Assembly: GCF_014695725.1 (NCBI RefSeq)
Contig: NZ_JACJOU010000007.1
Span: forward strand, 248,001 to 312,000
DNA: 64,000 nt
Direction of reading: 5' to 3'
Origin: Microcoleus sp. FACHB-672
GTDB lineage: Bacteria; Cyanobacteriota; Cyanobacteriia; Cyanobacteriales; Oscillatoriaceae
The notes under the pieces were generated by a model. That model was given only the letters and a program-made list of their open reading frames with translations, ran no database searches and was not told the DNA's origin. Both the position numbers and the translations under genes were made by a program. Positions 44,183 to 64,000 of this stretch are shown here, piece by piece. Position 1 is the stretch's first letter; each line of letters opens with the position of its first letter.

Positions 44183-44617
44183 ATGAAGCCTTACCCAATT
44201 GAGTTTCGGCAAAAAATCATTGAAGTCTATAACAAAGAAAATCTCTCCATTCGTCAGCTTGCTCAACGTTTTTACGTGGCCCCAAGCTTTGTTCAAAAAT
44301 TACTCAAACAATATAAAGACACTGGCAATCTTCATCCTCGTCCTCAAGGAGGCAGTCCTCAACCTAAACTCAAGGCCGAGCAATTAATTGATTTAATAGA
44401 AATCATCGAAACTCATAATGATGCCACTCTGGCAGAACTTTGTGACTTGCTTGAACAGAAGGTTCACGTTAGAGTCAGTCGAGCCACAATGGGGAGACTC
44501 ACGCAAAAACTCAACTATAGCGTAAAAAAAAACTCTTTATGCTGCCGAAAAAGAGCGAGAGAAAGTCCAAAAGCAGCGAGTCGATTTTTGGTTAAATATC
44601 AGAAATATCCGAGTTGA
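44183..44617 (+). CDS. IS630-type transposase, first frame (DNA-binding part)
   Basis: Codes for 144 residues, of which about the first 115 are meaningful. The N-terminus has the helix-turn-helix of IS630/Tc1 transposases (SIRQLAQRFYVAPSFVQKLL) followed by a second winged-helix part (LAELCDLLEQKVHVRVSRATM). After the nine-A run at 44524-44532 the frame continues only in out-of-frame residues to a stop at 44617. It would supply the inverted-repeat binding part of the transposase. The ATG has no clear ribosome-binding site. Confidence 0.8.
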   Translation: MKPYPIEFRQKIIEVYNKENLSIRQLAQRFYVAPSFVQKLLKQYKDTGNLHPRPQGGSPQPKLKAEQLIDLIEIIETHNDATLAELCDLLEQKVHVRVSRATMGRLTQKLNYSVKKNSLCCRKRARESPKAASRFLVKYQKYPS

Positions 44618-44657
44618 AGACCTGATTTTCATAGATGAAGCCGGAGTTAACCTCGCA

Positions 44658-45137
44658 ATGGTTAGGCTATATGCCAGAGCTTTAAAAGGCCAAAGAGCGA
44701 GAGGTAAAAAAATCCAAAAAAGAGGCAGAAACATTTCTTTGCTTTCTGCGCTGTCGCTGAAAGAAGTCTTGGCCTCATCCAATATTTATGGCGCAGTAGA
44801 CGGAGCGACGTTTGAAGCTTTCCTTGTCAAAAAGTTAATCCCTAAACTTTGGAAAAATGCGTGTGTTGTCATGGATAATGCCAAAATTCACAAAGGTGAA
44901 ATGGTCAGAGAACTTATTGAAGCAGCGGGAGCTAGACTGATTTATTTACCTCCTTACTCCCCAGAGTTCTCCCCAATTGAAAATTTTTGGTCAAAAGTTA
45001 AAGCCCTCTTGAAAAAGACAGCAGCCAGAACCTATAAAGATTTAATCAACTCCATTATTAGCGCTATGCTTCAGGTAACTAAGAAGGATATTCGTCACTG
45101 GTTTACTCATTGTTGCTATCATACCTCACGGGTATGA
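44658..45137 (+). CDS. IS630-type transposase, second frame (DDE catalytic part)
   Basis: The frame is open from 44532 (KTLYAAEKEREKVQKQRVDF...), upstream of its first ATG at 44658. The catalytic residues are Asp in LIFIDEAG (before the ATG), Asp in CVVMDNAKIHKGE and Glu in SPEFSPIENFWSKVK. Because the first Asp lies before the ATG, only a fused product made by changing frame (+1) at the nine-A run, or by transcript slippage there, would be an active transposase. The C-terminus ends HWFTHCCYHTSRV. All catalytic residues are present, so the element may still be mobile. Confidence 0.8.
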   Translation: MVRLYARALKGQRARGKKIQKRGRNISLLSALSLKEVLASSNIYGAVDGATFEAFLVKKLIPKLWKNACVVMDNAKIHKGEMVRELIEAAGARLIYLPPYSPEFSPIENFWSKVKALLKKTAARTYKDLINSIISAMLQVTKKDIRHWFTHCCYHTSRV

Positions 45138-48537: not shown

Positions 48538-51021
48538 TTACTCAAAAGTTTCTCTCAGTTTATCTTCAATCTGTTCTACTAGGCGCTGAGTTACCTCGCG
48601 CACACCCAATACAGAATTTTGGCCTTGGATTTGCGCGATTTCGCCACAGTCCTGATCTTTTCTGCCTAAGAGAAAATAAGTTTTCATTTCTCCTTTGCCT
48701 TTCACTGAGATTGTTCCCCGTTCTTCAAACAAATAACACTCCTGCAAGAGTTGGTAGCTGGCATCAGACACTTGAATTCGCCCTGCTAAACCGTGTGATT
48801 CCATACGGCTAGCGATATTCACCGTGTCGCCCCACAGATCATAAATAAATTTTTTGATGCCAATGACTCCTGCCACAACCGGCCCGCTATGAATTCCGAT
48901 CCGGATGCTAAATGCTTGATTATTCTCTTGATTAAATGTGGCCACTGCGCTTTGCATATCAAGGGCCATTGCAGCAATTGTTTGAGCATGATCTGCCCGC
49001 CGATTGGGGAGTCCGCCAACCACCATATAAGCATCCCCAATCGTCTTAATTTTCTCCAAACCGTGCTGTTCACTCAGCCGATCAAAGGCTGAGAAAATTT
49101 GATTCAGCAAGTCTACCAATTCAATCGGTGACAGATAAGAAGCTATCTGCGTAAAGCCTACGATATCTGCAAACATAACCGTCACTTCGGCAAAGTTTTC
49201 CGCAATCGTACTTGCCCCCTGTTTCAGGCGCTCGGCAATGGGTGCTGGTAATATATTGAGCAACAAGCGTTCAGTTTGTTCCCTTTCTTGGCGTAGTTCC
49301 GCTTCCGCCTGCAATCGCTCGGTGATATCTCGAAAGATTGCCCGAATGGCCACGGGCTTTCCTTCTACAAATTTACAGTTTACATTTCCTTCTACTGAAA
49401 TTTTTTTACCCTCTTTGCTAAGAAATGCAGCTTGAAACCGCTCTATTTTTTCACCAGATATTACTCTGTTAAATATCTGTAACCATTGAGCTTTACAATC
49501 GGGATGAATGATATCAAAAACGGTTAATTCTGAAATTTCTGCTATATATCCCAAGGTTTCTTGCCAAGCTCGATTGACATAAATAAAATGACCGCCGGCA
49601 GTAACAGATTGAATTAAATCGCTCGCATTTTCAAACAATTCTCGATATCTTTCTTCACTTTCAAAAAGCGCAGCTTCCGCTCGTTTACGCTTAATAAACT
49701 GACCCAGTTGACTGCCAATCGCAGCCATTGTCTGTAATAAGTCTTCATCGGGTTGCTGCACTTCTCGGCTAAAGAATGCCATCACGCCTAGCACTTCAGC
49801 GTTGCTGAGGATGGGGAAACCAAACCCTCCATGCAATCCAGATCGGGCGGCAAGTTGTGATCGCAAGAAGTTAACATCTTTAGCGACATCGCTCATCCAG
49901 TGCGGGGAACGATTTGCCCACACACGACCGGGTAAACCAACGCCAAAGGCAAACGTAGTTTGTTTGGAGACTTCGATAAATTCTGTGCTGACTGCTGCCG
50001 GTCTTGACCAAATTTCCACACATCGTAGCAATTGAGAGCGTACACCAACTAAATGAGAAGTGAGAATTTTTTCTTCATGCTTCATTCTCATTTCTTCATT
50101 CTCTACCATCCAAAGTTCCCCAACTGTCCATCCCACGCTTTCACAAATTGCTAGCAAAATTTTAGGGATCGCCTGCTCTAATGTCGCAGATTCAGATAAA
50201 ACCCGGGCTGTAGCATACTGCGCCCCCCAGCGTTGTTGGGTGCGTTGACGTTCCGTAATATCGCGACCGATATAAAGGAAATCTTTCAAGTTTTCTATAT
50301 CAGTTTGGAGGCCCGAACAAGAAAATTCAACAAAAATTTTTTGACCGGCTTTGGTATGACAAACAACTTCTATATCTTTCAGAAGTTCACCATTTGATAA
50401 AAGCTTCTCCTGAAAAACTAAGTTTAAAAAATTTCGATCAGCAATTATTCTTGAAATTGGCTGTCCGATTAATTCTTCTTCCCCATATTTGAATAAATTT
50501 TGAGCGGCTTTGTTAATTATTTTTATAGCGCCAGAAAATGTAGTAACTATCAAGGCATCTGCCATTGATGTGATAATTTGTTTGTTATATTTTTTTGAAT
50601 GAGAGAGGGCGCTGACTAAAAGATTTGATTCATTTGTACTTTGTACTAATCTTTGCTCTAAGAGCATTTTTTCTGTGACATCTTCAAAAAAAATAATCAA
50701 CTTTTTTTCAAAACTTTCTTCATCGGCTGTATATTCATTAACATAAAAATCGAGATAAAAAGGAGAAGTCAATTCGGAAAATCGCCCAATACCTTTTAGC
50801 TCAAAGCTTTCCTGATGTGCTTGCAAGACTGCCGTTAAAATCTCTTCAGTTCCTATCAATTCAGGAAAGCCGGTGCGGACATCCTTTCCCGGTTCCACTT
50901 CATCAGGACAATCCGCAAATCTTCCTACACCGGGGGATATATCTAAGATAATCCAGTTCCCGCCTATGATCAGATACTCCAGGTGACGCGGGACTAAGAG
51001 TTTTTTGAAATGCTTATTCAT
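48538..51021 (-). CDS. PAS/GAF-containing class III adenylate cyclase
   Basis: 827 residues. Domains: shared N-terminal module (1-130), PAS (~150-265), GAF (~275-440), PAS (~450-565), a coiled linker (~565-600), and a class III cyclase (~605-790). Metal-binding Asp residues are in MFADIVGFTQIAS and KTIGDAYMVVGG. The adenine-selecting residues Lys (IKTIGDAY) and Asp (YDLWGDTVN) are both present, and the transition-state Asn/Arg are in VNIASRM, so ATP is the expected substrate. Soluble; no membrane helix. It follows the sensor kinase gene by 29 bases, clearly one operon. The N-terminal module is shared with that kinase and the giant hybrid kinase. Confidence 0.93.
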   Translation of the reverse strand: MNKHFKKLLVPRHLEYLIIGGNWIILDISPGVGRFADCPDEVEPGKDVRTGFPELIGTEEILTAVLQAHQESFELKGIGRFSELTSPFYLDFYVNEYTADEESFEKKLIIFFEDVTEKMLLEQRLVQSTNESNLLVSALSHSKKYNKQIITSMADALIVTTFSGAIKIINKAAQNLFKYGEEELIGQPISRIIADRNFLNLVFQEKLLSNGELLKDIEVVCHTKAGQKIFVEFSCSGLQTDIENLKDFLYIGRDITERQRTQQRWGAQYATARVLSESATLEQAIPKILLAICESVGWTVGELWMVENEEMRMKHEEKILTSHLVGVRSQLLRCVEIWSRPAAVSTEFIEVSKQTTFAFGVGLPGRVWANRSPHWMSDVAKDVNFLRSQLAARSGLHGGFGFPILSNAEVLGVMAFFSREVQQPDEDLLQTMAAIGSQLGQFIKRKRAEAALFESEERYRELFENASDLIQSVTAGGHFIYVNRAWQETLGYIAEISELTVFDIIHPDCKAQWLQIFNRVISGEKIERFQAAFLSKEGKKISVEGNVNCKFVEGKPVAIRAIFRDITERLQAEAELRQEREQTERLLLNILPAPIAERLKQGASTIAENFAEVTVMFADIVGFTQIASYLSPIELVDLLNQIFSAFDRLSEQHGLEKIKTIGDAYMVVGGLPNRRADHAQTIAAMALDMQSAVATFNQENNQAFSIRIGIHSGPVVAGVIGIKKFIYDLWGDTVNIASRMESHGLAGRIQVSDASYQLLQECYLFEERGTISVKGKGEMKTYFLLGRKDQDCGEIAQIQGQNSVLGVREVTQRLVEQIEDKLRETFE

Positions 51022-51050
51022 ATCAACTCTCTTAATTTAAATTTATTGGG

Positions 51051-52595
51051 TTAACTTTTCTTTTCATATTCATTTGAAAAGGGAGAGTTATTCCAGGGAA
51101 TCATGACTCTAAAGGTTGTGCCGGCTCCAACTTCACTTGCTACCATAATTTTGCCACCGTGTAATTCTACAGACTTGTGGACAATCGCCAATCCTAAGCC
51201 GGTGCCAGAAATATTTCGGGCATTTCTGGCCCGATGAAATAATTCAAACAATCGTTTTTGATCTTCTAAAGGAATACCAATCCCTTGATCTTGAATCTCA
51301 AAAATTACCTCTTTATCTTTACACATGAGGTTCAAAACAACTGGCTTCCCTGGCGGTGAAAACTTGAGCGCGTTGGAAAGCAAGTTAGTGAGAATATGGC
51401 GCAGGAGTTTTTCATCCATACAAGCATTAATATTTTCGCACTCATTAACAAAGGTAAGGGCGTGCTTTTTGCCGGCACTGAGTTGCATCTCTTCTACCAG
51501 ATCGCCACAAAATTTTCCTAAGTCAATGAAATTGGGATCGAATTCTAATCTCCCGGCTTCAGATTTTCCGAGCGTCAGCACATCATCTAATAAGTTTGTC
51601 ATTTGTTTGACGGCTGAGTGAATCATCTGAAAATATTGTTGAGTCTTTTTTTCGCATCTTTTAGGACTATAATAGTGATCTTCTAATAATTCTACTGAAG
51701 TTAGGATAATCGTGAGTGGCGTCCGAAACTCATGAGATGCCATCGAGACAAAATTAGATTTCATTTCATTAAGTTCTTTTTCTTTTTCCAGAGCAGAACG
51801 AATTTCCGCTTCAGCACGCTTACTTTCGGTGATATCCCGACCGATATAAACAAAATCTTGCACGCCTTCTATATCTGTCTGAATGACTGAACAGGAAAAC
51901 GCAACAGAAATTTTTTCGCCGGCTTTCGTATAGCAATCGACTTCTATATTTTGCAACAATTCAGATTGAAAGCATAAATCTGATGGCTCCATGATTGGAG
52001 AAAGAAGTTTTTTCTCAGGTATAATCAACGAAATGGGCTGGCCAATTAATTCTTCTTCGCTATATTGAAATAATTCTTGACTTGATTGATTGATCGTTTT
52101 AATCTGGCCGGAAGAAGTTGTCACCAATAAAGCATCGGCCATCGATTTAATGATTTTATCTATATAATCTTTTGAACTAACCAGCGCACTGAGTAATAAA
52201 CCAGATTCATTCGCTCTTTGAACTAATGTTTGTTTCAAAACCATCATTTCCGTAACATCTTCAAAGAACACGACTAACTGATTTTCTAGCGTTTCATCAT
52301 GTTGAAACTCACTTACGAAAAGATCGATATATAAAGGAGATTCCCGATCTGAGAACCGAGCGATGCCCTTGAATTCAAAGCCCGCCTGTTTGCCTTGTAA
52401 AACTTCTGATAAAATATGTTCAACTCCTATCAGTTCAGGAAAGCCGGCGCGGACATCATTGCCAGGAACCACTTCATCGGGACGATCAGCAAACCGTTTG
52501 ACACCGGCAGAAGTTTCTAAAACAATCAAGTCTTGATCCATTGTTAGATACTCCATACGGCGTGGGCCTAATAGTTTTTTTAAAAGGGTGTTCAT
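51051..52595 (-). CDS. Sensor histidine kinase with shared N-terminal module
   Basis: About 514 residues from the ATG at 52595, chosen because AGGAG precedes it; the longer frame to 52637 is less likely. Domains: shared N-terminal module (1-130, with FADRPDEVVPGNDVRAGFPELIG), PAS (~145-260), HisKA with the phospho-acceptor His near 287 (SMASHEFRTPLT), and HATPase (~395-505, with LSNALKFSPPG, DQGIGIPLEDQ and GTGLGLAIVHK). It lacks membrane helices, so it senses in the cytoplasm or through a partner. No receiver is attached. The adenylate cyclase gene follows after 29 bases, so kinase and cyclase are likely co-expressed. Confidence 0.93.
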   Translation of the reverse strand: MNTLLKKLLGPRRMEYLTMDQDLIVLETSAGVKRFADRPDEVVPGNDVRAGFPELIGVEHILSEVLQGKQAGFEFKGIARFSDRESPLYIDLFVSEFQHDETLENQLVVFFEDVTEMMVLKQTLVQRANESGLLLSALVSSKDYIDKIIKSMADALLVTTSSGQIKTINQSSQELFQYSEEELIGQPISLIIPEKKLLSPIMEPSDLCFQSELLQNIEVDCYTKAGEKISVAFSCSVIQTDIEGVQDFVYIGRDITESKRAEAEIRSALEKEKELNEMKSNFVSMASHEFRTPLTIILTSVELLEDHYYSPKRCEKKTQQYFQMIHSAVKQMTNLLDDVLTLGKSEAGRLEFDPNFIDLGKFCGDLVEEMQLSAGKKHALTFVNECENINACMDEKLLRHILTNLLSNALKFSPPGKPVVLNLMCKDKEVIFEIQDQGIGIPLEDQKRLFELFHRARNARNISGTGLGLAIVHKSVELHGGKIMVASEVGAGTTFRVMIPWNNSPFSNEYEKKS

Positions 52596-53467
52596 ATCGG
52601 CTCCTATCCGTAAAATAAGTTTAGAAAAATCAAACAAATTATTGTTGTCCGAGCAAAACTATCATTTTTGCTAAAAACGGATTTTTTTTGAGCTGTAATT
52701 ATTTCATAGATATCTCTCATTCAAAAATATTCTAAAAAATGTTCATTGACCAATGTAAAAAAAAAATTATATTCTCAGCAATTCCTTGAAAACGCCATAG
52801 CGGTAGCCGGTATTGAACAAGCAAAATGCAATTTTTATGGAGGCTGGTGTCACGAATTTGCAGTTTTTTCTGTCTAATCACCCAAAGAACAAACGATAAA
52901 ATCAGATTACTTAAAATATATAACTTAAGTGATGAATAGCTTTGAAAGAATAAAATACCGACTTTTAGTGAATACGGGTGACTAAACTTACCGTTTCCTA
53001 AGCAACTAAACAGGTTGGGTTTGTCCAAAGGTAGGAGCCGGCATAATTGGTGTGAGATGGCATACATGATTTTGCCTTTTGCCTCCTGTAGAATTGGCTT
53101 AAATTGCAGATATTTGTTTAATCATAAGAGAAAAATGTACTAATATATGGTAATATCAAATTTTAAACTACTTGGATTTAAGTTGCCTAAGAAATAGAAG
53201 TTTAAGCAAGGTGCCACTCCATCGTGAGAATGATAGAGGTCAGGTAGCGAGAGGCGTGGAGTGAGGGCGAGAGTGTTGGTAGCATAGGTTGCAGAATACT
53301 TTAAACTTAACATAATTAAACATCATAGACCCTTGTCAATCCTTCCAGTTAGGATTTCGCAAATTAACGTTAAGAAATCGCGTCGATTTAACAGTTTTCG
53401 GCGCATTTCGCTACGATTAGGCCATGAGATTGGGGTGCCAAACTGTTAAGTCGGGCTGTAAATAGTG
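52596..53467. other. Intergenic region left of the receiver-GGDEF-EAL gene
   Basis: About 870 bases, AT-rich at 52640-52790 and 53100-53200. It should hold promoters for the kinase-cyclase operon and the plus-strand receiver gene. A 111-residue minus-strand frame (52732-53067) is present but weak. Nothing else recognised. Confidence 0.4.
52732..53067 (-). CDS. Doubtful 111-residue frame
   Basis: AGGAGG lies 14 bases before the ATG and AAGG eight bases before it. The product has one hydrophobic helix (LKLYILSNLILSFVLWVI) and many aromatic and Cys residues, with AT-driven codon use. I do not recognise it. It may be a small membrane protein or chance. Confidence 0.2.
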   Translation of the reverse strand: MYAISHQLCRLLPLDKPNLFSCLGNGKFSHPYSLKVGILFFQSYSSLKLYILSNLILSFVLWVIRQKKLQIRDTSLHKNCILLVQYRLPLWRFQGIAENIIFFLHWSMNIF

Positions 53468-55204
53468 ATGAAAAAAATTCTAGTCATAGAAGATGAGCGC
53501 TCCATACGCAAGAACCTGCTGGCACTCTTGACGGCTGAGGAGTTCAACGTCATAGGAGCCGAAAATGGCAGCATCGGAGTGCAGTTGGCACGCACAGAAT
53601 TCCCCGATTTAATTCTGTGCGATATTATGATGCCAGAACTCGACGGTTACGGCGTACTGGCTGCATTGCAACAAAATCCAGCCACTGCCATGATTCCGGT
53701 TATTTGCCTCACGGCTAGAGGAGATCGAGCTGCACAGCGTCAGACAATGGAACTAGGAGCCAATGATTTTCTGACAAAGCCCTTCACTAGAAGCGAACTT
53801 CTCGGTGCCATTAAAACGCAGTTGAGCAAGCAAGAAATGCTCAAGCAGCAGCAGAATACAGCCCTTCAACAAGCGATCTCCCAGCTCAATGACTTAGTTT
53901 ATTACGATAGCCTGACAAATCTTCCCAATCGACTTTTATTACGCGAGCGATTTCACCAGGCTCTTAGTCTTCAACTGTTCCCAAACCAAATCATTCCGGT
54001 CGCAGTGCTCAGTCTAGATCAGCTCGACCGTTTCAGCCACAGTTTGGGAACCGACTATACAGACTTATTACTACAAGAAATTAGTGAACGGGTTGTTCCT
54101 TATGTGAGCGAAATCGGCACAGTGGCCCGATTAAACAGCCAGCAACTCGCTTTAATTTTGCCCCCTGTTGGAGAAGGGCAAAAAGCAACCCAGATGGCTC
54201 AAACAATTATTAATGAATTATCTCAACCCTTTACCTTGCTTGGATATAAAATTTTTATCACCAGCAGTATTGGCATAGCGCTGTATCCGAATGATGGCGA
54301 AGACCTCGATAGTCTGCTGAAAAATGCCAAAGCTGCCATGCATGAGGCGCAAGAACAGAGTGGTAATTGCTATCAGCTTTACACCGCAGCAATGCAGGAG
54401 AAATCTTATGAGCGGTTGATGCTAGAACTCGACTTGCGCCATGCTTTAGAACGGTCTGAGTTTCAAATACATTATCAGCCCCAAGTTGACCTCCAGAGCG
54501 GAAAAATTGTGGCTGCCGAAGCATTGATTCGGTGGCACCACCCAAAACGGGGTTCAGTCTCGCCGGCAGAATTTATTCCCCTAGCCGAAGCCACCGGCTT
54601 AATTGTCCCCATCGATGAATGGGTGCTGCGGACGGTTTGCCGGCAAGCAAAAGACTGGCAAGAAACGGGATTTTTCTTACCCGTTGCGGTGAACTTGTCA
54701 GCCGTTCAATTCAATGAACCGGGTTTAAGCGATCGGGTTGCTCAAATCTTAGAGGCGACAGGGCTAGAGCCTCGTTTTTTAGAGTTAGAACTGACAGAAA
54801 GTGCGGTGGTGCAGAACCCAACAAGAGCGATTGCTACGCTAAAAGAACTTAAAGCTTTAGGAATTCATCTGTCCTTAGATGATTTCGGCACCGGCTACTC
54901 TTCCTTAAGTTACCTACAACAATTTCCGTTTGACACTTTGAAAATAGACCGTTTCTTTGTCAGCGAACTCAGTCATGAAGATAAAAATTCCGCCATTATC
55001 ATTGGCATCATTAAACTGGCGCACAGTTTGAATTTGAAAGTGGTTGCGGAGGGCGTTGAGACGAAGGCGCAAGAGGCCCTGCTGCGCCACTATCGCTGTG
55101 ATTTTATGCAAGGCTATGGATTCAGTCCGCCGGTGCCGGCTACAGCCTTAGAAAAAATGCTCAAAGAACAAGCCCGCAATCTGTACTCAACAGACACGGG
55201 TTAA
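53468..55204 (+). CDS. Receiver-GGDEF-EAL response regulator (probable c-di-GMP phosphodiesterase)
   Basis: 578 residues from the ATG at 53468; a GTG one codon before is possible. The receiver has its phospho-acceptor Asp at about residue 52 (LILCDIMMPELDG) and a Lys in FLTKPF. The GGDEF domain (~145-305) has NSQQL where the GGDEF motif should be, so diguanylate cyclase activity is unlikely. The EAL domain (~315-560) keeps its catalytic set: AAEALIRW, VNLSAVQF, ELTESAVV, LDDFGTGYSSL, KIDRFFV, EGVETKA and QGYGFSPP. It is therefore read as a receiver-controlled c-di-GMP hydrolase. It is the only plus-strand gene in the signalling island. Confidence 0.92.
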   Translation: MKKILVIEDERSIRKNLLALLTAEEFNVIGAENGSIGVQLARTEFPDLILCDIMMPELDGYGVLAALQQNPATAMIPVICLTARGDRAAQRQTMELGANDFLTKPFTRSELLGAIKTQLSKQEMLKQQQNTALQQAISQLNDLVYYDSLTNLPNRLLLRERFHQALSLQLFPNQIIPVAVLSLDQLDRFSHSLGTDYTDLLLQEISERVVPYVSEIGTVARLNSQQLALILPPVGEGQKATQMAQTIINELSQPFTLLGYKIFITSSIGIALYPNDGEDLDSLLKNAKAAMHEAQEQSGNCYQLYTAAMQEKSYERLMLELDLRHALERSEFQIHYQPQVDLQSGKIVAAEALIRWHHPKRGSVSPAEFIPLAEATGLIVPIDEWVLRTVCRQAKDWQETGFFLPVAVNLSAVQFNEPGLSDRVAQILEATGLEPRFLELELTESAVVQNPTRAIATLKELKALGIHLSLDDFGTGYSSLSYLQQFPFDTLKIDRFFVSELSHEDKNSAIIIGIIKLAHSLNLKVVAEGVETKAQEALLRHYRCDFMQGYGFSPPVPATALEKMLKEQARNLYSTDTG

Positions 55205-55272
55205 TTTTAAATTCATCTCCCTCTCACCCTCAATTTCCCTAGAAAAATTAAATACCTAACAGCTTAAATACC

Positions 55273-56601
55273 TTAACTAGGACGCAGCCCTGCTACATCA
55301 GAAGTATGCTCCTGATGGGAAGCAAGTAATGATTTGGATTGCTGTAGCGGAATTTCAATAATAAACTCAGCACCCTGTCCGGGTTCAGAAATGCAAGTTA
55401 ACGTGCCACCATGCTTTTCTACCACAATTTGATAGCTGATAGATAAACCCATTCCAGTGCCTTTACCGACTGGTTTAGTTGTGAAAAAAGGGTCAAACAA
55501 TTTCCGTTCAACTTCCTTTGTCATCCCTAATCCATTATCCGCAATTCGGATTACCACCCAGCGATGATTCTTCACTTCTGTGTGAATTCGGATCACCGGC
55601 AAGAGACACTCAGCCGCCTCTAAAGGATGGTTTTTCGCTTCCTCTAGCACATCAATTGCATTGCTAATAATATTTAAAAATACCTGGTTGAGCTGGCCGG
55701 CATAACACTCAACCAAGGGCAATTCTCCATACTCTTTTAAAATCTGAATCCCAGAATAACTGTCACTCGGTTGCAAACGATGCTGCAAAATTAATAAAGT
55801 ATTATCAAGTCCCTCGTGCAGATCAACTTTCTTCTTTTCAGCTTCATCCAGGCGGGAGAAATTACGCAATGACAGCACAATTTGGCGAATGCGTTGTGCA
55901 CCCATTTTCATCGAAGATAAAATTTTGGGCAAATCCATTGCCAGAAATTGAAAATCAATCGCTTCAATTTCCTCTTGAAGCTCTGTAACCGGGTTGGGGT
56001 AGTGTTTCTGATAGAGCTTTACTAACCTTAGTAAATCTTGGAGATAGTGGCCGGCATGGGCGAGATTGCCATCAATAAACGTAACTGGGTTATTAATTTC
56101 ATGAGCAATGCCGGCCACCATTTGCCCCAAACCAGACATTTTTTCACTTTGAATCAGTTGCATCTGGGTGTGTTGCAACTCTTGCATCGCTCGGTTAAGC
56201 TGCTGGTTAGACTGACTCAATTCTTGAGTTAATTGGTACTGGCGCAAACCGGCTCGTACTCGTGCCAACAATTCATTCGGATCGATCGGTTTAGAAAGAA
56301 ACTCATCCGCCCCAGCATCCAGTCCCTCGACTCGGTGAGCCACAGACTCACGGGAGGTGAGTAAAATAAAAAAAGTGGTCGCCAAAAGGGGATCTGCCTT
56401 AATCTGCCGGCACACCTCCACCCCATCCATCAGCGGCATAATCCAATCGCAAATAATTAGAGCCGGTTGTAACTGCTTTGCTTGCAGAAGTCCTTCGGCA
56501 CCATCCTTTGCCACGGTGACATCATACCCCTCTAGTTGGAGGTCTCTTTTGAGAAATAACCGAGTTGCCGCATCATCTTCGACGACAAGAATTTTTGACA
56601 T
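55273..56601 (-). CDS. Receiver-histidine kinase (REC-HisKA-HATPase)
   Basis: 442 residues. The N-terminal receiver has the acceptor Asp at residue 52 (LIICDWIMPLMDG). A coiled linker leads to the HisKA helix with His at 167 (MVAGIAHEINNP), and the HATPase has SNAIDVLEEAKN, IADNGLGM and GKGTGMGLSISYQIV. In this layout the receiver regulates the attached kinase. It lacks an output domain, so it should phosphorylate another receiver, for example the plus-strand receiver-EAL protein whose gene ends next to it. It stands 246 bases from the giant kinase gene and might be separately transcribed. Confidence 0.92.
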   Translation of the reverse strand: MSKILVVEDDAATRLFLKRDLQLEGYDVTVAKDGAEGLLQAKQLQPALIICDWIMPLMDGVEVCRQIKADPLLATTFFILLTSRESVAHRVEGLDAGADEFLSKPIDPNELLARVRAGLRQYQLTQELSQSNQQLNRAMQELQHTQMQLIQSEKMSGLGQMVAGIAHEINNPVTFIDGNLAHAGHYLQDLLRLVKLYQKHYPNPVTELQEEIEAIDFQFLAMDLPKILSSMKMGAQRIRQIVLSLRNFSRLDEAEKKKVDLHEGLDNTLLILQHRLQPSDSYSGIQILKEYGELPLVECYAGQLNQVFLNIISNAIDVLEEAKNHPLEAAECLLPVIRIHTEVKNHRWVVIRIADNGLGMTKEVERKLFDPFFTTKPVGKGTGMGLSISYQIVVEKHGGTLTCISEPGQGAEFIIEIPLQQSKSLLASHQEHTSDVAGLRPS

Positions 56602-56847
56602 AAAAAGTTAATCACCAGACACAGCAAAGGATAGGGAGAACCAATAGTTTGCACCTTAACAATGATGATTTTCTGTTTTTAGCTTCACACAATCGCAGCA
56701 TCCTAATGTCTGAACGCGCCAAAAACGGGAAAATTCTAATGTTATACTATTGCACCCAAGACTGATAAGACGACCGTCGCTTTGTTAATATTCCCAAGCT
56801 CAACCTGAAATGATTAACTTTTCCAGATGAAATTGGCAGGGCCATTT

Positions 56848-59800
56848 TTAATGAGCTGGCCAGTTAGCAATCAAAGCTTTTACCTGCTGTAGAATTGCTT
56901 CTAGTTCAGTGACTAACTCCGCCGCTCCTTCAAGGTGATTTTCTTGAGCCACACTCTCTAATTGAGCTGCCAGAGCCGGCATCTTGCGGATCGCAACCAT
57001 CCCGCTTGCACCTTTGAGCTGGTGAGCACGCCGGCAAAGAGTGGCGACATCGCGAGTTTCAGCAGCTTGCTTAATTTCTTCCACATAAGTGGGAGCATCC
57101 TCCATAAAGGTTTCTAGCAATTCCAACTCAAATGCTGTATCTCCTCTGCTGAGTTCGCGCAGTCGCTCCAGATCCACCGGCACCTCAAGAGGCGTTGCAG
57201 ACACAGGGCTGCTAGAAGAGAGAACCGGCGTTATTTCCTCCTGATGCTGTTCTTTTACAGGTTTATAGCGATTGAGAATAGCCGCCAAGGATTTGAGATC
57301 GATGGGTTTGCTGATGTAGTCATCCATGCCGGCTGCCAAACACTTTTCTCGATCTCCTTTTAAGGCATTAGCCGTCAAGGCAATCACAATCGTATGGCGA
57401 GATTCACCTTCCCGGAGGCGAAGCGCTTGTGTCGTTTTATAGCCGTCGAGAACCGGCATCTGACAATCCATTAAAATAATGTCGTAATCTGTTTGGGCGA
57501 GCCGGTCAAGGGCTTGCTGCCCATCGCTGACACAATCAGCCTGATAACCCAGTACCTTGAGTTGACTCAGGGCAACCTTTTGGTTAATGGGGGTATCTTC
57601 CACCAGCAGAATTTTCAGGGTTGCCGGGGGTTGCGCCGGCGTTTCTGGTGGCTGTAGATCCTGGGCATGATTAGTGGGTGCTGGCTGCTTGACAGAAGCG
57701 TCGGTGGAGGTGATTACCGGCTGTGGATTGTCCTGTGTTGGTTGTTTGAGCGCCAATGGCGGAACACGTGCCGGCAGCCCCCAGCCGGCAGCGAGTGCTT
57801 CCTCTGTTGAGGGAGAGATGTTGTTACCTCTTATGGCTTGCTTTAGGCAATTTAACAGCTTGGATGCTTTTATCGGCTTGATTAAATAGCAAGAGAACCC
57901 TAGATCCAGCAGGCGAATGGCGCGATCCCGCTGGTGCATTGAAGTGATCGAAATCCACCTGGTTTGAACGAGGGCGGGATCGAAGCGGATCAGTTGTCCG
58001 AACACTTCTCCATTCATCCCCAGGATATCCAAGCTAATCAAAGCTACATCATAGGGGTTACCACTGGCTACAGCTTGGCGCAGAATCGTCAGAGCAGTGG
58101 TGCCGGTTTCGGCTTCACTCACCTCAATGCCAAAAGAGTTGGCATAAGAGCGCAATATTTGGCGATTGGTGGAGTTATCATCCACGATTAACATCCGGCG
58201 ATGTTGGATTTTAATTTCTGGATGCTGAACTGGCTGTGAAATTCCGCTGGCGGCTTGTTTTTCTAAGGTGGCGGTGAACCAGAAAGTTGAACCTCCTCCC
58301 TCTACACTTTCAACACCAATTTCACCTCCCATCAGCTCTACCAGCTGCTTGCAGATCACCAGCCCTAAGCCGGTGCCGCCATATTTGCGTGTAGTGGAGG
58401 CGTCCACTTGCGAAAAAGATTGGAAGAGTTTGTCTAAGTCTGCCGGTGCGATACCAATGCCGGTGTCCTTGACGGTAAATCGTAGCTTTACGTTTTCAGG
58501 AGAGGATGAGAAGGTTTCTTCATTTTCCTGTTCTTTCCCCCACCTCTGGACATGAATCACTACTTCCCCTTGGGAGGTGAATTTGAGCGCGTTGCCGGCC
58601 AAATTAATCAACACCTGACGCAGCCGGCTGGCATCTCCTGATAGGGCTGCCGGCACATCACTTTCCACTAAAGTAAACAGTTCCAGTCCTTTGGCATTAG
58701 CCTGTGCTGCTAACAAATCTGTGACTTCTTCCACACAGGTATTCAAGTCAAAGTCCAGGGTTTCCAGCCGCATTTCACCGGCTTCAAGCTTGGAGAAGTC
58801 GAGAATATCATTAATCAGGGTTAGCAGGTTTTGGCCGCTGACGCGCAGGGTTCGTACAAAGTCTTGCTGTTCCGCATTAAGCGGCGTTGACAAAAGCAAA
58901 TCGGTCATCCCCAGGACGCCATTCATCGGGGTGCGGATTTCGTGACTCATGTTGGCGAGGAATTGTGATTTCATCCGCGAGGCTTCCAGGGCAGATTCTC
59001 GCGCTTCTACTAATTCATCAATCACTTGAGTAACGATGACAATTCCCCCAACTTTTCCCTCTGAGCTGTACCAAGGTTGAACAGCCCAGCGCAGATACAT
59101 TTGGGAGCCATCTAAACGCTCAAACATTTCCTCTGGTTTGGAAATGACCTGCCCTTGCAGCGCCCGCTGATAAATGTCTATTTGAGACAATGAGAGATGC
59201 GGCAGAACTTCATAGTGGGAACGTCCCATCAAAGAATGCCCCTCTAGTTGGTAATCTGTCACCCACTGATTGCTGTGGGCGAGATAGCGCATCTCGGTAT
59301 CAAACATCGCCATTGCTACCGGCGCATTGGTAATAATTTGCCGCAGCTGCTGACGCTCTTGCTCTAGGGCTTGTTCTATTAGCTTGCGGTCGGTAATGTC
59401 GTTGAGGGTGCCAGAAACGCCGAGCACTGTGCCGTCTGATGTCAAGTTCAAGCGTTTTTGAACCTCAATCCAGCGGCAGCCACCATTTTTTGTTAAGTAA
59501 CGAATCTCGTGCCGGATGACTTCTTTTTGAAGAGTAATCAGGCTTTCAAAATGCCCTAAATTTATTTGGCGGTCATCGGGATGAATGAATTCTATAAAGT
59601 TTTTGCCTAGGCTTTCTTCAACAGTGAAGCCGGTGATTTCTGTCCACGCTGGGTTGAGAAATGTCCACAAGCCATTTGCGTCTTTTTGGAAAATAACTTC
59701 ATGTAAACTGTTAACAACCGAACGATATTTGTTCTCGCTTTCTAAAAGTGCAGCTTCTGCTAGCTTGCGGTCAGTAATATCGCGCTGAACCGTGGCAAAG

Positions 59801-62800
59801 CACATAGGTTTGCCAGTTTCTAAGTGCTTGACGATAAACATGGTCATTTGGGTGTCGATGAGCTGGCCGGTTTTAAAGTGGCGCAGTGTGCCTTCTCCTT
59901 CCCAGTGACCGTTTTTTTCGATGGTGGGGAACAACGTCTTTTGGTATTGCACCCAAGTGTCTTGAGAAAGATAGTCGGATATTTTAGGAGCCAAGGTTTG
60001 TTCGTGACTGTCGAGTCCCACCAGCTGACGCCCCGCTTCATTGAGATAAAAGACTTGGCCTTCTAGTGTCGCCATGCCAATGAAGTCGCTGCTGTTTTCG
60101 ACGAGGGAAACAAATTTTTGCCGTTCTTCTTCTGCTCGTTTGCGATCACCGGCTTCCATTGCCAGAGATGCCATATAGGCCAAGTAATTCGCGAAGTTTT
60201 GTTCTTCTAATGCCCAACGGCGCGCCGTTCCGATGTGTTCGTGACAAAGTACTCCGACTGTTCGCCCACCTAGACGAATGGGCACATCCAGCATGGAGGT
60301 AATGCCTAGGGGTGTGAGATAACACTCGCTAAACTCTTGAGTGTGGGGGTTGGTGTGAGCGTCATCTGCGGCAATCATGCGGTCTGCTTCTAGAGCTTGG
60401 AAATAACCGGGAAAGTCCTGGGCAGAAAGTTCTAAGCCGCTGGAATGCCGATTCTCGTTCATTTCGTATAGGTCGCGGGCGTGAATTTTCGTGTGATCTT
60501 CGTTGTAGAACCACACGCTAACTCGCGCTAAGTTGAGAGTGCCGGCTGCAATTTGGGTGAGTTCTTGCAAGGCTGCCTCTACGTCGCCACTGTACAGGGG
60601 CTGGCACTTGGCGAGTGCCATCAGTCCTGCTTGTTGTCTTCTGAGCCGAATTTCGCTTTCGCGCAGTGCTTGTTCTGCCTGCTTGCGAGCAGTGATATCA
60701 AAAACCGAGGATCGGCTCATTAGATAGTTGCCGGCGCTATCTCTGACTGCTGTTGAACTCAAGAGGATAGGCAGAATTGTGCCATCTTTACGGATGATGT
60801 CGAACTCAAGATCGCTCACCCACCCTTGCTCTTTGTAGTGGAAAAAGTTTTCTTGGAAAGTTCGCGAACTTTCAAGGGTCAGGATATCAGAAAACTTCTT
60901 TTTTCCGAGAATTTCATCGAGTGTATAACCAAACCAATTGAGTTCGGTCTCGTTAATGCGGATGAATGTTCCTTCTGAATCGAGGGAGTGATAGCCGCAG
61001 GGAGCGTTGTTATACAAGTCTTGAAGTTCATCTGTATAGCTTTGTAGCGCTTCTTCGGCCTGTTTGCGCTCGGCTATTTCTTCTTGAAGAAATTCGTTGG
61101 TTTCTATTAATTCAACGGTTCGTTCTTGGACTCGAACTTCTAATTCCTCATGAGATTTTAGCAGTGCTTCTTGTGCTTGCTGGCGTTCGAGTTCTGCTGC
61201 TGCGCGAGCGGCAAAAACATTGATTAGCATGACGCCTCGCGGGTCTTCTAGCAAGGGTTTGTCATGGATAATGCACAGAGTGCCAATGACTTTGTGTGCT
61301 CTGTCAAATAGGGGAACGCCTAAGTAACCTTGGGCACGGAGCGAAATGAGTGCCGGTGCTTTGGGAAAGCGTTCTAGCAAATGATCGGCAAAGTGACAGA
61401 GATGGGCTTCGTTGGTAACGACTTCACAAGGAGTGTCGGCTAGGTTGTAATCGAAGTTTTCCTCCAGTTGATCGCCGGCCCAAAAGGCGAGGGTTTGCAA
61501 TTTTTCAATTGGGTCGCCTTTGGCTTGTGAGACGAGGGCGTAGCGAACGTCGAGTGCGGCTGCCAAATGGCGCACCAGTGCGGGAAAGAATTCTTCTCCG
61601 GTGACGGAAGCTGTGCCGGCAACGATATTTTGTAGGGTTTCTTCGGCTCGCTGGCGTTCGCTAATTTCTGCCTGTAATGCTGCGTTGGCTGTAGCAAGTT
61701 CGACGGTGCGTTCTTGCACGCGAATTTCTAATTCATCGTGAGCTTGGCGGAGTGCTTCTTCTGTTTGCTGCCGTGCCCAAACTTCGCTGAGTAATTGTTC
61801 GTTGGTTGCTTTTAATTCGGCGGTGCGTTCATCGACTCGGCGTTCTAATTCTTCATTAGTTTGTTGTAGGATGGCTTCGGCTTGTTTGCGTTCGGTAATG
61901 TCGGTGATGATGCCTTCAATTCGGACGCTGTTGCCTTTGGCATCTTTAATTAACTGACCTCGATCATAAACCCAACGCATTTCTGAGTTGCCACGGATGA
62001 TGCGGTATTCTATTTCGGCGCTGCCGGTTTTTAAAATTGTGGGAACATAGTTAGAAACTCGCTCACTGTCTTCTGGGTGAATTACTTCAAGCCAGAGTTG
62101 ACGATTGTTATAAAATTCCCCCACGGGCCGGTTGTAAAGTGTCTCTGTGGCTGGGTTAAGGTAAAGCAGTTCAAAGGTTGTTGCTGAAATTGACCACACC
62201 ACATCTTGAAGCGAGTTCATCAGGCTGCTGAGGCGCAATTTGCTCTCTCGCAGGGCTGTTTCTATGTGCTGGCGCTCGGCAATTTGGGTTTCTAGTTGCT
62301 GGATAGTTTGCCTTAATTCGACGGTTCGTTCGCTAACTTTTTGAGCGAGGGCTGCGTTCATTTTGGCTACGGCAGCTTCTGTGCGCTTGCGCTCGGTTAT
62401 ATCACGACCGACATAGACAAAATCTTCCAAGATTTCTAAGTCTGTTTGGATGGCTGAACCCGAAAAGGAGATAAAAATTTCTTCCCCTGCTTTGGTCTGA
62501 CAAGTGACTTCTACATTCTGCAAAAATTCCCCTCTAGATAGGGTTGTTGCCGGCTGTAAAAATTCTCTAACTGATGTTGCTTCATTCTCGCTTTGCTGTT
62601 CAGCTAGAATCATCGCAAGCGGCTGACCTATTAAGTCTTCTTCTCTATAGCCAAACAACTCTACGGTAGCTCGATTAACTTTTTTTATAATCCCACTTTG
62701 ATTCACAACAAATAAAGCATCAGCCGTGGCTAATAAGATTTTTTCTAGATAAGATTTGGAGGCTGACAGTTGACTCAATAAAAGATAAGATTCGTTCTCT

Positions 62801-63195
62801 CGCTGAACTAATGTTTGTTTTAAGACCATCCTTTCTGTAGAGTTTTCCATGAGGACGAGCAATCGATTTTTTGAAAATTTCTCGTCTTCATCCCTAATAA
62901 CGAAAACATCTATATATAATGGAGAACTCGCTTCAACAGAGCGATCAATGCCTTTGAGTTCAAAAAGCTCTTGCTGCCCTTGAAGGATGGCACTCAGATA
63001 ATCTTCTATGCCAATCAGTTCGGGAAAGCCGGCGCGAACATCGTTTCCGAGGATGGCTTCATCGGGACGATCAGAAAAGTGTTTGGCTCCCTCAGATATT
63101 TCTATGATGCTGAAGCGTTCATCTACTACCACGTATTCCATCTGGTTGATGGCTGAGGGTTTATGGAAAATCTGATTTAAAACTTGGTATTTCAT
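56848..63195 (-). CDS. Giant hybrid histidine kinase (module-PAS-GAF-HK-REC-REC-HPt)
   Basis: 2115 residues. Approximate order: shared N-terminal module (1-135), PAS (155-270), PAS (325-435), coiled linker, GAF (530-680), PAS (740-835), GAF (850-1010), three PAS (1040-1395), HisKA with His near 1417 (MSHEIRTPMNGVLG), HATPase (1525-1650), a first receiver (1670-1785), a second receiver with Asp near 1910 (ILMDCQMPVLDG) and an HPt domain with His near 2056 (AHQLKGASG). The first receiver reads ISLDILGMNGE: the acceptor Asp is replaced by Ser, so it is a pseudo-receiver. No membrane helix is seen. The GTPase gene lies 42 bases upstream in the same operon. It likely integrates several inputs into one phosphorelay. 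Confidence 0.93.
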   Translation of the reverse strand: MKYQVLNQIFHKPSAINQMEYVVVDERFSIIEISEGAKHFSDRPDEAILGNDVRAGFPELIGIEDYLSAILQGQQELFELKGIDRSVEASSPLYIDVFVIRDEDEKFSKNRLLVLMENSTERMVLKQTLVQRENESYLLLSQLSASKSYLEKILLATADALFVVNQSGIIKKVNRATVELFGYREEDLIGQPLAMILAEQQSENEATSVREFLQPATTLSRGEFLQNVEVTCQTKAGEEIFISFSGSAIQTDLEILEDFVYVGRDITERKRTEAAVAKMNAALAQKVSERTVELRQTIQQLETQIAERQHIETALRESKLRLSSLMNSLQDVVWSISATTFELLYLNPATETLYNRPVGEFYNNRQLWLEVIHPEDSERVSNYVPTILKTGSAEIEYRIIRGNSEMRWVYDRGQLIKDAKGNSVRIEGIITDITERKQAEAILQQTNEELERRVDERTAELKATNEQLLSEVWARQQTEEALRQAHDELEIRVQERTVELATANAALQAEISERQRAEETLQNIVAGTASVTGEEFFPALVRHLAAALDVRYALVSQAKGDPIEKLQTLAFWAGDQLEENFDYNLADTPCEVVTNEAHLCHFADHLLERFPKAPALISLRAQGYLGVPLFDRAHKVIGTLCIIHDKPLLEDPRGVMLINVFAARAAAELERQQAQEALLKSHEELEVRVQERTVELIETNEFLQEEIAERKQAEEALQSYTDELQDLYNNAPCGYHSLDSEGTFIRINETELNWFGYTLDEILGKKKFSDILTLESSRTFQENFFHYKEQGWVSDLEFDIIRKDGTILPILLSSTAVRDSAGNYLMSRSSVFDITARKQAEQALRESEIRLRRQQAGLMALAKCQPLYSGDVEAALQELTQIAAGTLNLARVSVWFYNEDHTKIHARDLYEMNENRHSSGLELSAQDFPGYFQALEADRMIAADDAHTNPHTQEFSECYLTPLGITSMLDVPIRLGGRTVGVLCHEHIGTARRWALEEQNFANYLAYMASLAMEAGDRKRAEEERQKFVSLVENSSDFIGMATLEGQVFYLNEAGRQLVGLDSHEQTLAPKISDYLSQDTWVQYQKTLFPTIEKNGHWEGEGTLRHFKTGQLIDTQMTMFIVKHLETGKPMCFATVQRDITDRKLAEAALLESENKYRSVVNSLHEVIFQKDANGLWTFLNPAWTEITGFTVEESLGKNFIEFIHPDDRQINLGHFESLITLQKEVIRHEIRYLTKNGGCRWIEVQKRLNLTSDGTVLGVSGTLNDITDRKLIEQALEQERQQLRQIITNAPVAMAMFDTEMRYLAHSNQWVTDYQLEGHSLMGRSHYEVLPHLSLSQIDIYQRALQGQVISKPEEMFERLDGSQMYLRWAVQPWYSSEGKVGGIVIVTQVIDELVEARESALEASRMKSQFLANMSHEIRTPMNGVLGMTDLLLSTPLNAEQQDFVRTLRVSGQNLLTLINDILDFSKLEAGEMRLETLDFDLNTCVEEVTDLLAAQANAKGLELFTLVESDVPAALSGDASRLRQVLINLAGNALKFTSQGEVVIHVQRWGKEQENEETFSSSPENVKLRFTVKDTGIGIAPADLDKLFQSFSQVDASTTRKYGGTGLGLVICKQLVELMGGEIGVESVEGGGSTFWFTATLEKQAASGISQPVQHPEIKIQHRRMLIVDDNSTNRQILRSYANSFGIEVSEAETGTTALTILRQAVASGNPYDVALISLDILGMNGEVFGQLIRFDPALVQTRWISITSMHQRDRAIRLLDLGFSCYLIKPIKASKLLNCLKQAIRGNNISPSTEEALAAGWGLPARVPPLALKQPTQDNPQPVITSTDASVKQPAPTNHAQDLQPPETPAQPPATLKILLVEDTPINQKVALSQLKVLGYQADCVSDGQQALDRLAQTDYDIILMDCQMPVLDGYKTTQALRLREGESRHTIVIALTANALKGDREKCLAAGMDDYISKPIDLKSLAAILNRYKPVKEQHQEEITPVLSSSSPVSATPLEVPVDLERLRELSRGDTAFELELLETFMEDAPTYVEEIKQAAETRDVATLCRRAHQLKGASGMVAIRKMPALAAQLESVAQENHLEGAAELVTELEAILQQVKALIANWPAH

Positions 63196-63237: not shown

Positions 63238-63771
63238 TTACACCGGCTCTACCATTTTGTAAGCTAATTTTTGAAAGATTGCATCTACGTCTTTGCCAGT
63301 TTTTGCCGAAGTAGTATAGATGCCTAGTATTTCCTCTTGAGGGAGATCCTGAACAAGCTCAAAAAGTTTAGCCAGTTTGTCTTCGTCAACGAGGTCAGAT
63401 TTATTTAAAGCGATGATGGCAGAGCTTTTGGGGTTAACGGATGCAAAGAGCTGAAGATGCTCTGGAATTCGCTCAATGGTTTCTTGCCGGCTCACATCGG
63501 CAACGATTACCGCACCGCTAGATCCTTGTAAGTAACTTGGAGCAATCGCCTTAAATTTAGTATGCCCTTCTAAATCCCATATTAACATCTGTAAATCTAG
63601 CTTTTCCTGCTGCTTCACCTCAACCAGTTCAATATTTTTTCGAGAAATTTTAACGCCTACGGTTGAAAGGTACTGATCGCTAAACTGGCGATCAACAAAA
63701 CGACGAATTAAGCTGGTTTTTCCAACGCCAAAATCGCCGATTAAGCACATTTTTTTTGATATCATTGACAC
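63238..63771 (-). CDS. Small Ras/Rab-like GTPase
   Basis: 177 residues, one G domain. G1 is GDFGVGKTS (12-20), the switch I Thr is in YLSTVGVKIS (T37), G3 is WDLEGH (65-70), G4 is NKSD (123-126) and G5 is TSAK (154-157). The layout is Rab/Ras-like and not MglA-like. In G3 the position of the catalytic Gln (Q61 in Ras) is His70, a change that slows GTP hydrolysis in Ras, so the protein may persist in the GTP state or need a partner. There is no lipidation motif at the C-terminus. It is located between an OmpA-family gene and the giant kinase gene in one operon and may be an input to the kinases. Confidence 0.92.
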   Translation of the reverse strand: MSMISKKMCLIGDFGVGKTSLIRRFVDRQFSDQYLSTVGVKISRKNIELVEVKQQEKLDLQMLIWDLEGHTKFKAIAPSYLQGSSGAVIVADVSRQETIERIPEHLQLFASVNPKSSAIIALNKSDLVDEDKLAKLFELVQDLPQEEILGIYTTSAKTGKDVDAIFQKLAYKMVEPV

Positions 63772-63822: not shown

Positions 63823-64000
63823 TCACTGACTGTTGATCTCTGTCGGTGTTGCCGGTTCAAACACCACGCATCTGCTTAATAGTAACGGTTGATTGGACTC
63901 GACACCCGCAGGGGGTTTTGGTTTCCCTATCGCTTGTAGTCGCTTGGGATCGACACCTTGACTCACAAGCGCATCTCGCACAGCTATCGCCCGTTGTCGT
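63823..64000 (-). CDS. OmpA-family protein, C-terminal end (partial)
   Basis: The frame runs off the right edge; its stop TGA is at 63823-63825. The visible residues (RQRAIAVRDALVSQGVDPKR, then LQAIGKP) match the end of the OmpA C-terminal peptidoglycan-binding domain, where RAxAVxxxLxxxGVxxxRLxxxGxG is conserved. The tail (LLLSRCVVFEPATPTEINSQ) replaces the usual NRRVEI ending. OmpA-like domains bind peptidoglycan in the periplasm. The gap to the GTPase start is about 50 bases, so this gene probably heads the operon. N-terminal domains are not visible. Confidence 0.6.
   Translation of the reverse strand, partial: RQRAIAVRDALVSQGVDPKRLQAIGKPKPPAGVESNQPLLLSRCVVFEPATPTEINSQ

Follow-up and report, generated by a model that had tools for sequence, protein, structure and literature searches.

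We analyzed a stretch of 64,000 nt from contig NZ_JACJOU010000007.1 of the cyanobacterium Microcoleus sp. FACHB-672 (hereafter, the window), in which three signalling proteins encoded on the minus strand begin with the same N-terminal module of about 126 residues. These proteins are a nucleotide cyclase of 827 aa (48538–51021; module-PAS-GAF-PAS-cyclase), a histidine kinase of 514 aa (51051–52595; module-PAS-HisKA-HATPase) and a giant hybrid kinase of 2115 aa (56848–63195; module-PAS...GAF...HisKA-HATPase-RR-RR-Hpt), all three delineated by their open reading frames (ORFs) and Pfam matches. The frame of the histidine kinase contains an extra upstream TTG at 52637. A Rab/Ras-like small GTPase of 177 aa and of the Group 1 Rup type is encoded on the same strand (63238–63771), with 42 bp between it and the hybrid kinase gene downstream. 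This GTPase matches Ras (E = 2.9e-27), consists of a single domain of less than 240 aa with intact nucleotide motifs (GDFGVGKT, DLEG and NKSD) and presents a His at the position of the G3 Gln (DLEGH). Upstream of it, an OmpA/BON protein of 898 aa has its C-terminal end in the window (63823–64000, minus strand) and the rest beyond the window edge (L012:3823–6519), where a coiled-coil-like protein of 203 aa is also encoded; transmembrane helix and coiled coil were assigned by eye and from weak Pfam matches. This island is a Group 1 Rup-type operon.

The module covers residues 1–127 of the cyclase (50641–51021, minus strand; alignment and profile, E = 6.8e-54), residues 1–126 of the histidine kinase (52218–52595, minus strand; alignment and model), with Q122 and Q126 in its C-terminal helix, and residues 6–131 of the hybrid kinase (62803–63180, minus strand; alignment and profile), where it is preceded by five additional residues. 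A preliminary description of this DNA had stated that the three proteins share this module and the PAS domain that follows it, and our analysis confirms both the statement and the positions of the genes. The first 125 residues of the three proteins present 44–58% pairwise identity (BLASTP, E from 2e-51 to 7e-35), and in the alignment the likeness extends across the next PAS domain (residues 147–257 of the cyclase; 50251–50583, minus strand; Pfam), that is, over the first ~280 residues (45–56%). The sequence motifs were also as described, except that the spacer from [VI]LQ to FE[LF]KGI is five residues long and not four. We found three copies of the module in the genome, all of them in the window (single sequence, E ≤ 1; profile, E ≤ 0.001). 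No Pfam-A match covered residues 1 to ~130 of any of the three proteins at E ≤ 1, and no named domain was present in this region among the 25 best NCBIfam matches of each protein. The module, for which the preliminary description gave no domain name, is thus not named by the Pfam and NCBIfam matches either, but the region had been noted in 2014, without a name or a fold in the main text (PMC4316618).

The fold of the module was modeled with AlphaFold from an alignment of 19 modules (three from the window and 16 from loci L004–L011). The model is confident (pLDDT 87.6) and presents the order strand-strand-short helices-helix-three strands-long helix, with the last helix at residues 115–131. A Foldseek search with this model yielded 206 PDB chains at E ≤ 0.001, and the 50 matches listed were all of the PAS/LOV/PYP type (10–26% identity; best query TM-score 0.66). 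By sequence, PAS_9 was matched by two of the 19 members (best 1.1e-4) and PAS_4 by one of them (0.0077; 16.9 bits, below the cut-off of 23.1), and the three window modules did not match any Pfam PAS family in the module region at E ≤ 1. No relative of the module was found by sequence among solved structures (best E = 0.31, an unrelated protein). The order of strands and helices is that of a PAS domain with its signaling helix and the tie by sequence is thin, which indicates that the module is, according to the model, a sequence-divergent PAS subfamily of its own. A new fold was rejected on the basis of the confident PAS model and the Foldseek matches. A match to a known PAS subfamily had been named as a possibility at the outset: the modeled fold is that of PAS, and the sequence reaches PAS profiles in a minority of the members. 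The module resembles PAS/S-box domains (PAS_9 and PAS_4) in its strand/helix order, its D-x-T end, its signaling helix and a few weak matches of its members, whereas it differs from them by its own conserved segments (G-x-DVR-x-GFPELIG, FELKGI and Y-x-D), by a Q-x-L-x-Q motif in the helix and by its tie to the GTPase. LOV and heme PAS domains present a conserved Cys or His; in contrast, neither residue is found among the conserved columns of the module.

We further searched one draw of 292 cyanobacterial genomes for the module (profile, E ≤ 0.001) and for GTPases similar to that of the window (E ≤ 1e-12). The search yielded 61 module matches, of which the one interrupted by four stops (G180:C3) was dropped, leaving 60 module proteins. 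The module was found in 35 genomes and the GTPase in 34, with 33 genomes containing both (P = 5e-40; Fisher test, kinship ignored). Thirty genomes contain a GTPase at E < 1e-50 and all 30 of them contain the module (P = 4e-36; kinship ignored). The conserved domain of the OmpA protein was detected in 34 genomes, 33 of which possess the module; the module was found without this domain in G119 and G209, and the domain without the module in G040. The module therefore recurs outside its own genome, and the consistent link to small GTPase genes on which the preliminary description had placed the choice of a partner-binding role is observed in 33 of the 35 carrier genomes. A single-sequence scan of genome contigs also retrieved eight loci, all cyanobacterial.

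The module and GTPase genes are physically linked in most of these genomes, with a module gene located within 300 bp of the GTPase in 25 of 35. Across all loci, including L005–L011, 31 distinct GTPase genes are followed directly by a module gene on the same strand (32 before the removal of L007, a copy of L072), with a spacing of −8 to 118 bp and a 4-bp overlap in nine of the 31 pairs. One GTPase and one module-cyclase are encoded at separate places in each of three genomes (G016, G080 and G219). Among the fetched loci with a GTPase, the OmpA gene is alongside in 33/38, the coiled-coil gene in 31/38 and both in 30/38. The eight exceptions to the full gene set include L072, where the module gene sits between the GTPase and the OmpA genes, and L095 (genome G092), whose OmpA and coiled-coil genes are on another contig (L155).

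The output domains of the 60 module proteins are diverse: 22 class III cyclases, 15 histidine kinases, 11 hybrid kinases, nine GGDEF proteins and one SpoIIE-type phosphatase (the two others, L073 at a contig end and L074, were not assigned). Class III cyclases and kinases of both sorts occur at similar frequencies (respectively, 22 and 26 of the 60 proteins, and 22 and 21 of the 35 genomes). In the window cyclase, this catalytic domain extends over residues 607–785 (48667–49203, minus strand; PF00211, 4.6e-70), with EKIKTIGD and YDLWGD segments that we take to be those of an adenylate rather than a guanylate cyclase. At least two module proteins are present in 16 of the 35 genomes and their output labels differ in all 16, counting kinases and hybrid kinases apart, which is the sole output difference in G132. 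We inferred at least 13 parsimony changes of output on the module tree, relative to a least possible number of four and a mean of 27.8 after shuffling, on a topology whose support values are rough (30 of 57 inner branches are open). The hybrid-kinase module of the window clusters with three module-cyclases of family f15 (support 95/94), which indicates that this module was combined with more than one type of output. These results show that outputs were exchanged repeatedly, and the suggestion that one module serves different outputs holds for the cyclase, kinase and hybrid kinase of the window and extends to further outputs in other genomes.

Several single loci present unusual arrangements of the module. 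At L097:8416–9663 the module is fused to the SpoIIE-type phosphatase, and a stop in the module match falls just 5' of the ORF start. At L100:8703–10859 the module is internal (residues 217–330) and lies behind a weak receiver-like match under the Pfam cut-off. The decayed module dropped from the census (L120; G180:C3, 5950444–5950725), with its four stops, is located just upstream of an open GAF-cyclase frame (634 aa).

Outside cyanobacteria, we searched a plasmid collection of 72,556 records. Searches with the OmpA-protein domain and with the GTPase matched the same four plasmids: one of Nostoc, two of Rhizobium and one of Mesorhizobium. The plasmids of Mesorhizobium WSM1497 and Rhizobium 007 carry a coiled-coil relative (profile 1.7e-30 and 4.5e-29, respectively), an OmpA protein, a Rab-type GTPase and a cyclase of 356 aa, in that order. 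The N-terminus of these rhizobial cyclases aligned along its length with the module profile (hhalign E = 2.3e-4, probability 44%, two sequences); they lack the FPELIG segment but retain the helix that follows the PAS core (QRLQQKAYE relative to QTLVQRANE). Judging from these alignments, the Q-x-L-x-Q helix leaving the PAS core is the element that is best kept across phyla.

The position of the module gene directly after the GTPase gene, the persistence of the association when the two are unlinked and the conservation of the helix across phyla all favor a docking and transmitting role. We consider it reasonably likely that the module is a PAS-fold docking/transmitter domain for the Group 1 Rup Rab-like GTPase, and that it branches one GTPase onto several outputs. 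With this module at the head of three proteins, one GTPase could act on all three outputs in the cell, and a single switch probably controls the kinase relay, the kinase and the cyclase of the window together. The OmpA/BON protein, presumably a cell-wall sensor, would control the GTPase in some way, and the GTPase would then bind the module at or near the helix leaving the PAS core. Binding would alter the pitch or register of this helix, which would hand the change to the next PAS, GAF or coiled-coil linker and thence to the output (phosphorelay, histidine kinase or nucleotide cyclase). The preliminary description had proposed a common ligand or partner for the three proteins: co-occurrence and operon structure strongly indicate the small GTPase as the partner, but no finding points to a common small-molecule ligand.

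Several observations weigh against this docking role. Two genomes (G207 and G209) carry the module without a small GTPase close to the query (E ≤ 1e-12), and G207 possesses an OmpA-type protein and a module-GGDEF protein in the absence of a close GTPase. The GTPases of G105, G119 and G186 are only distantly alike (E from 6e-31 to 7e-27, the latter in G119, where the distant GTPase adjoins the module gene), and G040 contains a distant GTPase (E = 2e-29) and no module match. The GTPase and module trees are correlated overall (mirror-tree r = 0.59; n = 31), but the correlation is no better for adjacent modules than for the second module of the same locus (respectively, r = 0.49 and 0.58; n = 18), so that coevolution gives no support to the pairing. 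Finally, the kinases located 0.1–1.1 kb downstream of divergent GTPases of family f15 present the helix sequences QYIIQKARE, QALIQKARE and, once, HYFLQTARE, that is, the full motif in two of three, and a PAS core not clearly alike that of the module (hhalign E = 0.029). We rejected these kinases as bearers of the same module: the motif is alike, but hhalign did not establish similarity of the core.

The conservation of the Gln residues bears on a second explanation. At the last Gln position of the module, almost all of the 76 aligned rows agree (72 Q, 2 H and 2 gaps), and Q-x-[LIVMF]-x-Q is present in 65 of 73 distinct module proteins; of the eight remaining proteins, two are truncated matches. 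For comparison, a Gln pair with this spacing also arises by chance: other frames contain it 413 times over 290,476 residues. Of 59 generic D[IV]TE[RK] helices, counted with the modules included, 14 have it. The G3 motif was readable by pattern in 43 of 47 GTPases; the Gln is missing in 34 of these 43 and present in nine. For Group 1 Rup outputs, a Gln acting in trans was hypothesized by Wuichet and Sogaard-Andersen 2014 in the main text of their paper (PMC4316618). In that case the module would be a GTPase-activating element whose invariant Gln enters the GTPase site and replaces the missing G3 Gln, and the outputs would be feedback terminators as well as effectors. The His of the window GTPase, the missing Gln of the 34 readable GTPases and the near-invariance of the final module Gln (72 of 74 ungapped rows) all agree with this idea. 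However, seven of the nine loci whose GTPase owns a G3 Gln carry a module and Q-x-L-x-Q is kept in all seven, suggesting that the module Gln is not simply complementary; in addition, a helix with two conserved Gln at a distance of four residues is more suggestive of an interface. Overall, we regard an activating role as unlikely.

A further point against it comes from Oscillatoria, where a second GTPase copy lacks the P-loop GK[ST] (L005:10203–10772 and L006:10191–10546). The L005 copy presents NQLD in place of NKxD and is overlapped by a module gene by 4 bp; the L006 sequence ends before the point where the module gene follows in L005. Their motifs suggest that both copies are likely pseudo-GTPases. 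The L005 module thus accompanies a GTPase without a P-loop, a pairing that makes sense if binding is important independently of hydrolysis.

It is also conceivable that the module is an ordinary PAS sensor of a small ligand and that its operon with the GTPase merely reflects shared regulation. The PAS fold is consistent with such a sensor, and the G-x-DVR-x-GFPELIG, FELKGI and Y-x-D segments could line a pocket. Nevertheless, the genome contains just three copies, 33 of the 35 carrier genomes possess such a GTPase, the rhizobial relatives keep the helix and not FPELIG, and the conserved columns are devoid of Cys and His, which makes this explanation rather improbable. Recent local duplication without system-level meaning, suggested by the location of the three copies within 15 kb, is barely credible given their identity of 44–58%, a module tree in which two of them cluster with different relatives and the third is unplaced, and the presence of at least two module proteins in 16 of 35 genomes.

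The docking role proposed here relates closely to what is already known. The Group 1 Rup gene set, as given in the main text of PMC4316618, comprises a coiled-coil protein, a protein with an unknown domain, a transmembrane segment and OmpA, the Rup GTPase, and an output with an unnamed N-terminal region containing an invariant Gln. In the same text, typical outputs are GGDEF/EAL proteins or histidine kinases with one output gene per neighbourhood, the GTPases closely resemble eukaryotic Rab/Ran/Ras/Rho, and none of the Rup members had been characterized experimentally as of 2014. The words "PAS" and "adenylate cyclase" are not used in this main text, and "cyclase" appears once, for diguanylate cyclase. 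The island shares with Group 1 Rup its gene set, an intact GTPase of less than 240 aa, the lack of the G3 Gln and the lack of an MglB-type match, and the near-invariant module Gln may be the invariant residue described in 2014. It differs from that account by the PAS fold of the region, by the class III cyclase as a major output and by the several module proteins in 16 of 35 genomes. Our finding was therefore largely foreseen in the main text of 2014, where the region was noted as the N-terminal part of Group 1 Rup outputs. As far as the literature searched extends, the new elements are the fold, the numbers tying the module to the GTPase, the prominence of the cyclase among the outputs, the coexistence of several outputs in one genome, the recognition of the Q-x-L-x-Q helix as a cross-phylum element and the point against a simple Gln in trans. 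No later work on the partners of Group 1 Rup GTPases was recognized in the limited literature collection searched.

The actinobacterial conservons (CvnA-D) and MglA/MglB likewise couple a small Ras-like GTPase to two-component signalling at the membrane, according to the main text of PMC4316618. These systems pair with a Roadblock MglB protein, whereas we found no match to Robl_LC7 (MglB type) in the window genome at E ≤ 0.001. The module is a small, expressible candidate partner, its Q-x-L-x-Q helix is a candidate interface and cyclase activity offers an easy read-out, which makes the function of a bacterial Rab-like GTPase directly testable. If the proposed docking is true, PAS would become an effector fold of small GTPases and a cyclase would be placed under a Rab-like switch. 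Eukaryotic G protein-adenylyl cyclase signalling also combines a GTPase switch with a class III cyclase, a likeness in outline and an analogy only: the GTPase here is Rab-like, the cyclase is headed by PAS, and we claim no homology for the coupling parts.

The conserved domain of the OmpA protein (residues ~385–605 of the protein at L012:3823–6519) is very conserved and has no consistent Pfam match: its 32 members matched 22 scattered weak families, with at most four members each (best E = 0.0036), Fuz_longin_1 being among them (0.055). A model built from five sequences is poor (pLDDT 39) and presents a longin/roadblock-like order of strands and helices. The 50 Foldseek matches listed for this model have query TM-scores of 0.18–0.28, with one at E ≤ 0.001, and nearly all of them are presumably longin or roadblock folds (adaptor sigma subunits, Ego3, Rag, LAMTOR and MglB). 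Against 177,635 PDB sequences, the profile of the domain yielded TRAPP BET5 as its sole match (E = 1). A comparison of profiles with Roadblock (Robl_LC7) was not significant: the hhalign score of 15.9 lay among those of the shuffled alignments, three of 60 of which scored higher, in a control that is rough (one of 19 roadblock rows, L142, is in the wrong frame and the shuffle set is incomplete). A longin/roadblock-like domain in the OmpA protein is thus an unproven lead suggested by the model. We tentatively propose, as a speculative possibility, an envelope-to-cytoplasm system in which the wall-anchored, longin/roadblock-like OmpA protein would be the exchange factor or platform of the GTPase, and the GTPase would act through the dedicated PAS-fold effector, which has been fused repeatedly to cyclases, kinases, diguanylate cyclases and a phosphatase. 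If this is true, cyclic nucleotides, cyclic di-GMP and phosphorelays would all be set by one switch, and the pairing of a longin with a GTPase would resemble eukaryotic Rab/TRAPP.

A longer paralogue of the OmpA protein (~1,200 aa) was found at L152:6053–9694, L153:6417–10028 and L154:4712–8320, with no GTPase or coiled-coil gene in the fetched stretch, and it is the only copy found in G207. We also observed a second, divergent class of GTPase (L124–L128; 165–168 aa; G3 DLYGE or DIYGE), which is accompanied by coiled-coil and OmpA genes of its own; a small histidine kinase is located downstream of it in L125–L127. Within the window, the island contains two further signalling genes without the module, both assigned from Pfam: a receiver-histidine kinase of 442 aa (55273–56601, minus strand) and, on the opposite strand, a receiver-GGDEF-EAL protein (53465–55204, plus strand). 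Similar receiver-histidine kinases without the module are located after the GTPase at L109:7677–8969, L113:10357–11649 and L115:10213–11505. Finally, two adjoining ORFs at 44183–45137 of the window presumably represent, from the style of their sequence, a split transposase of the IS630 type.

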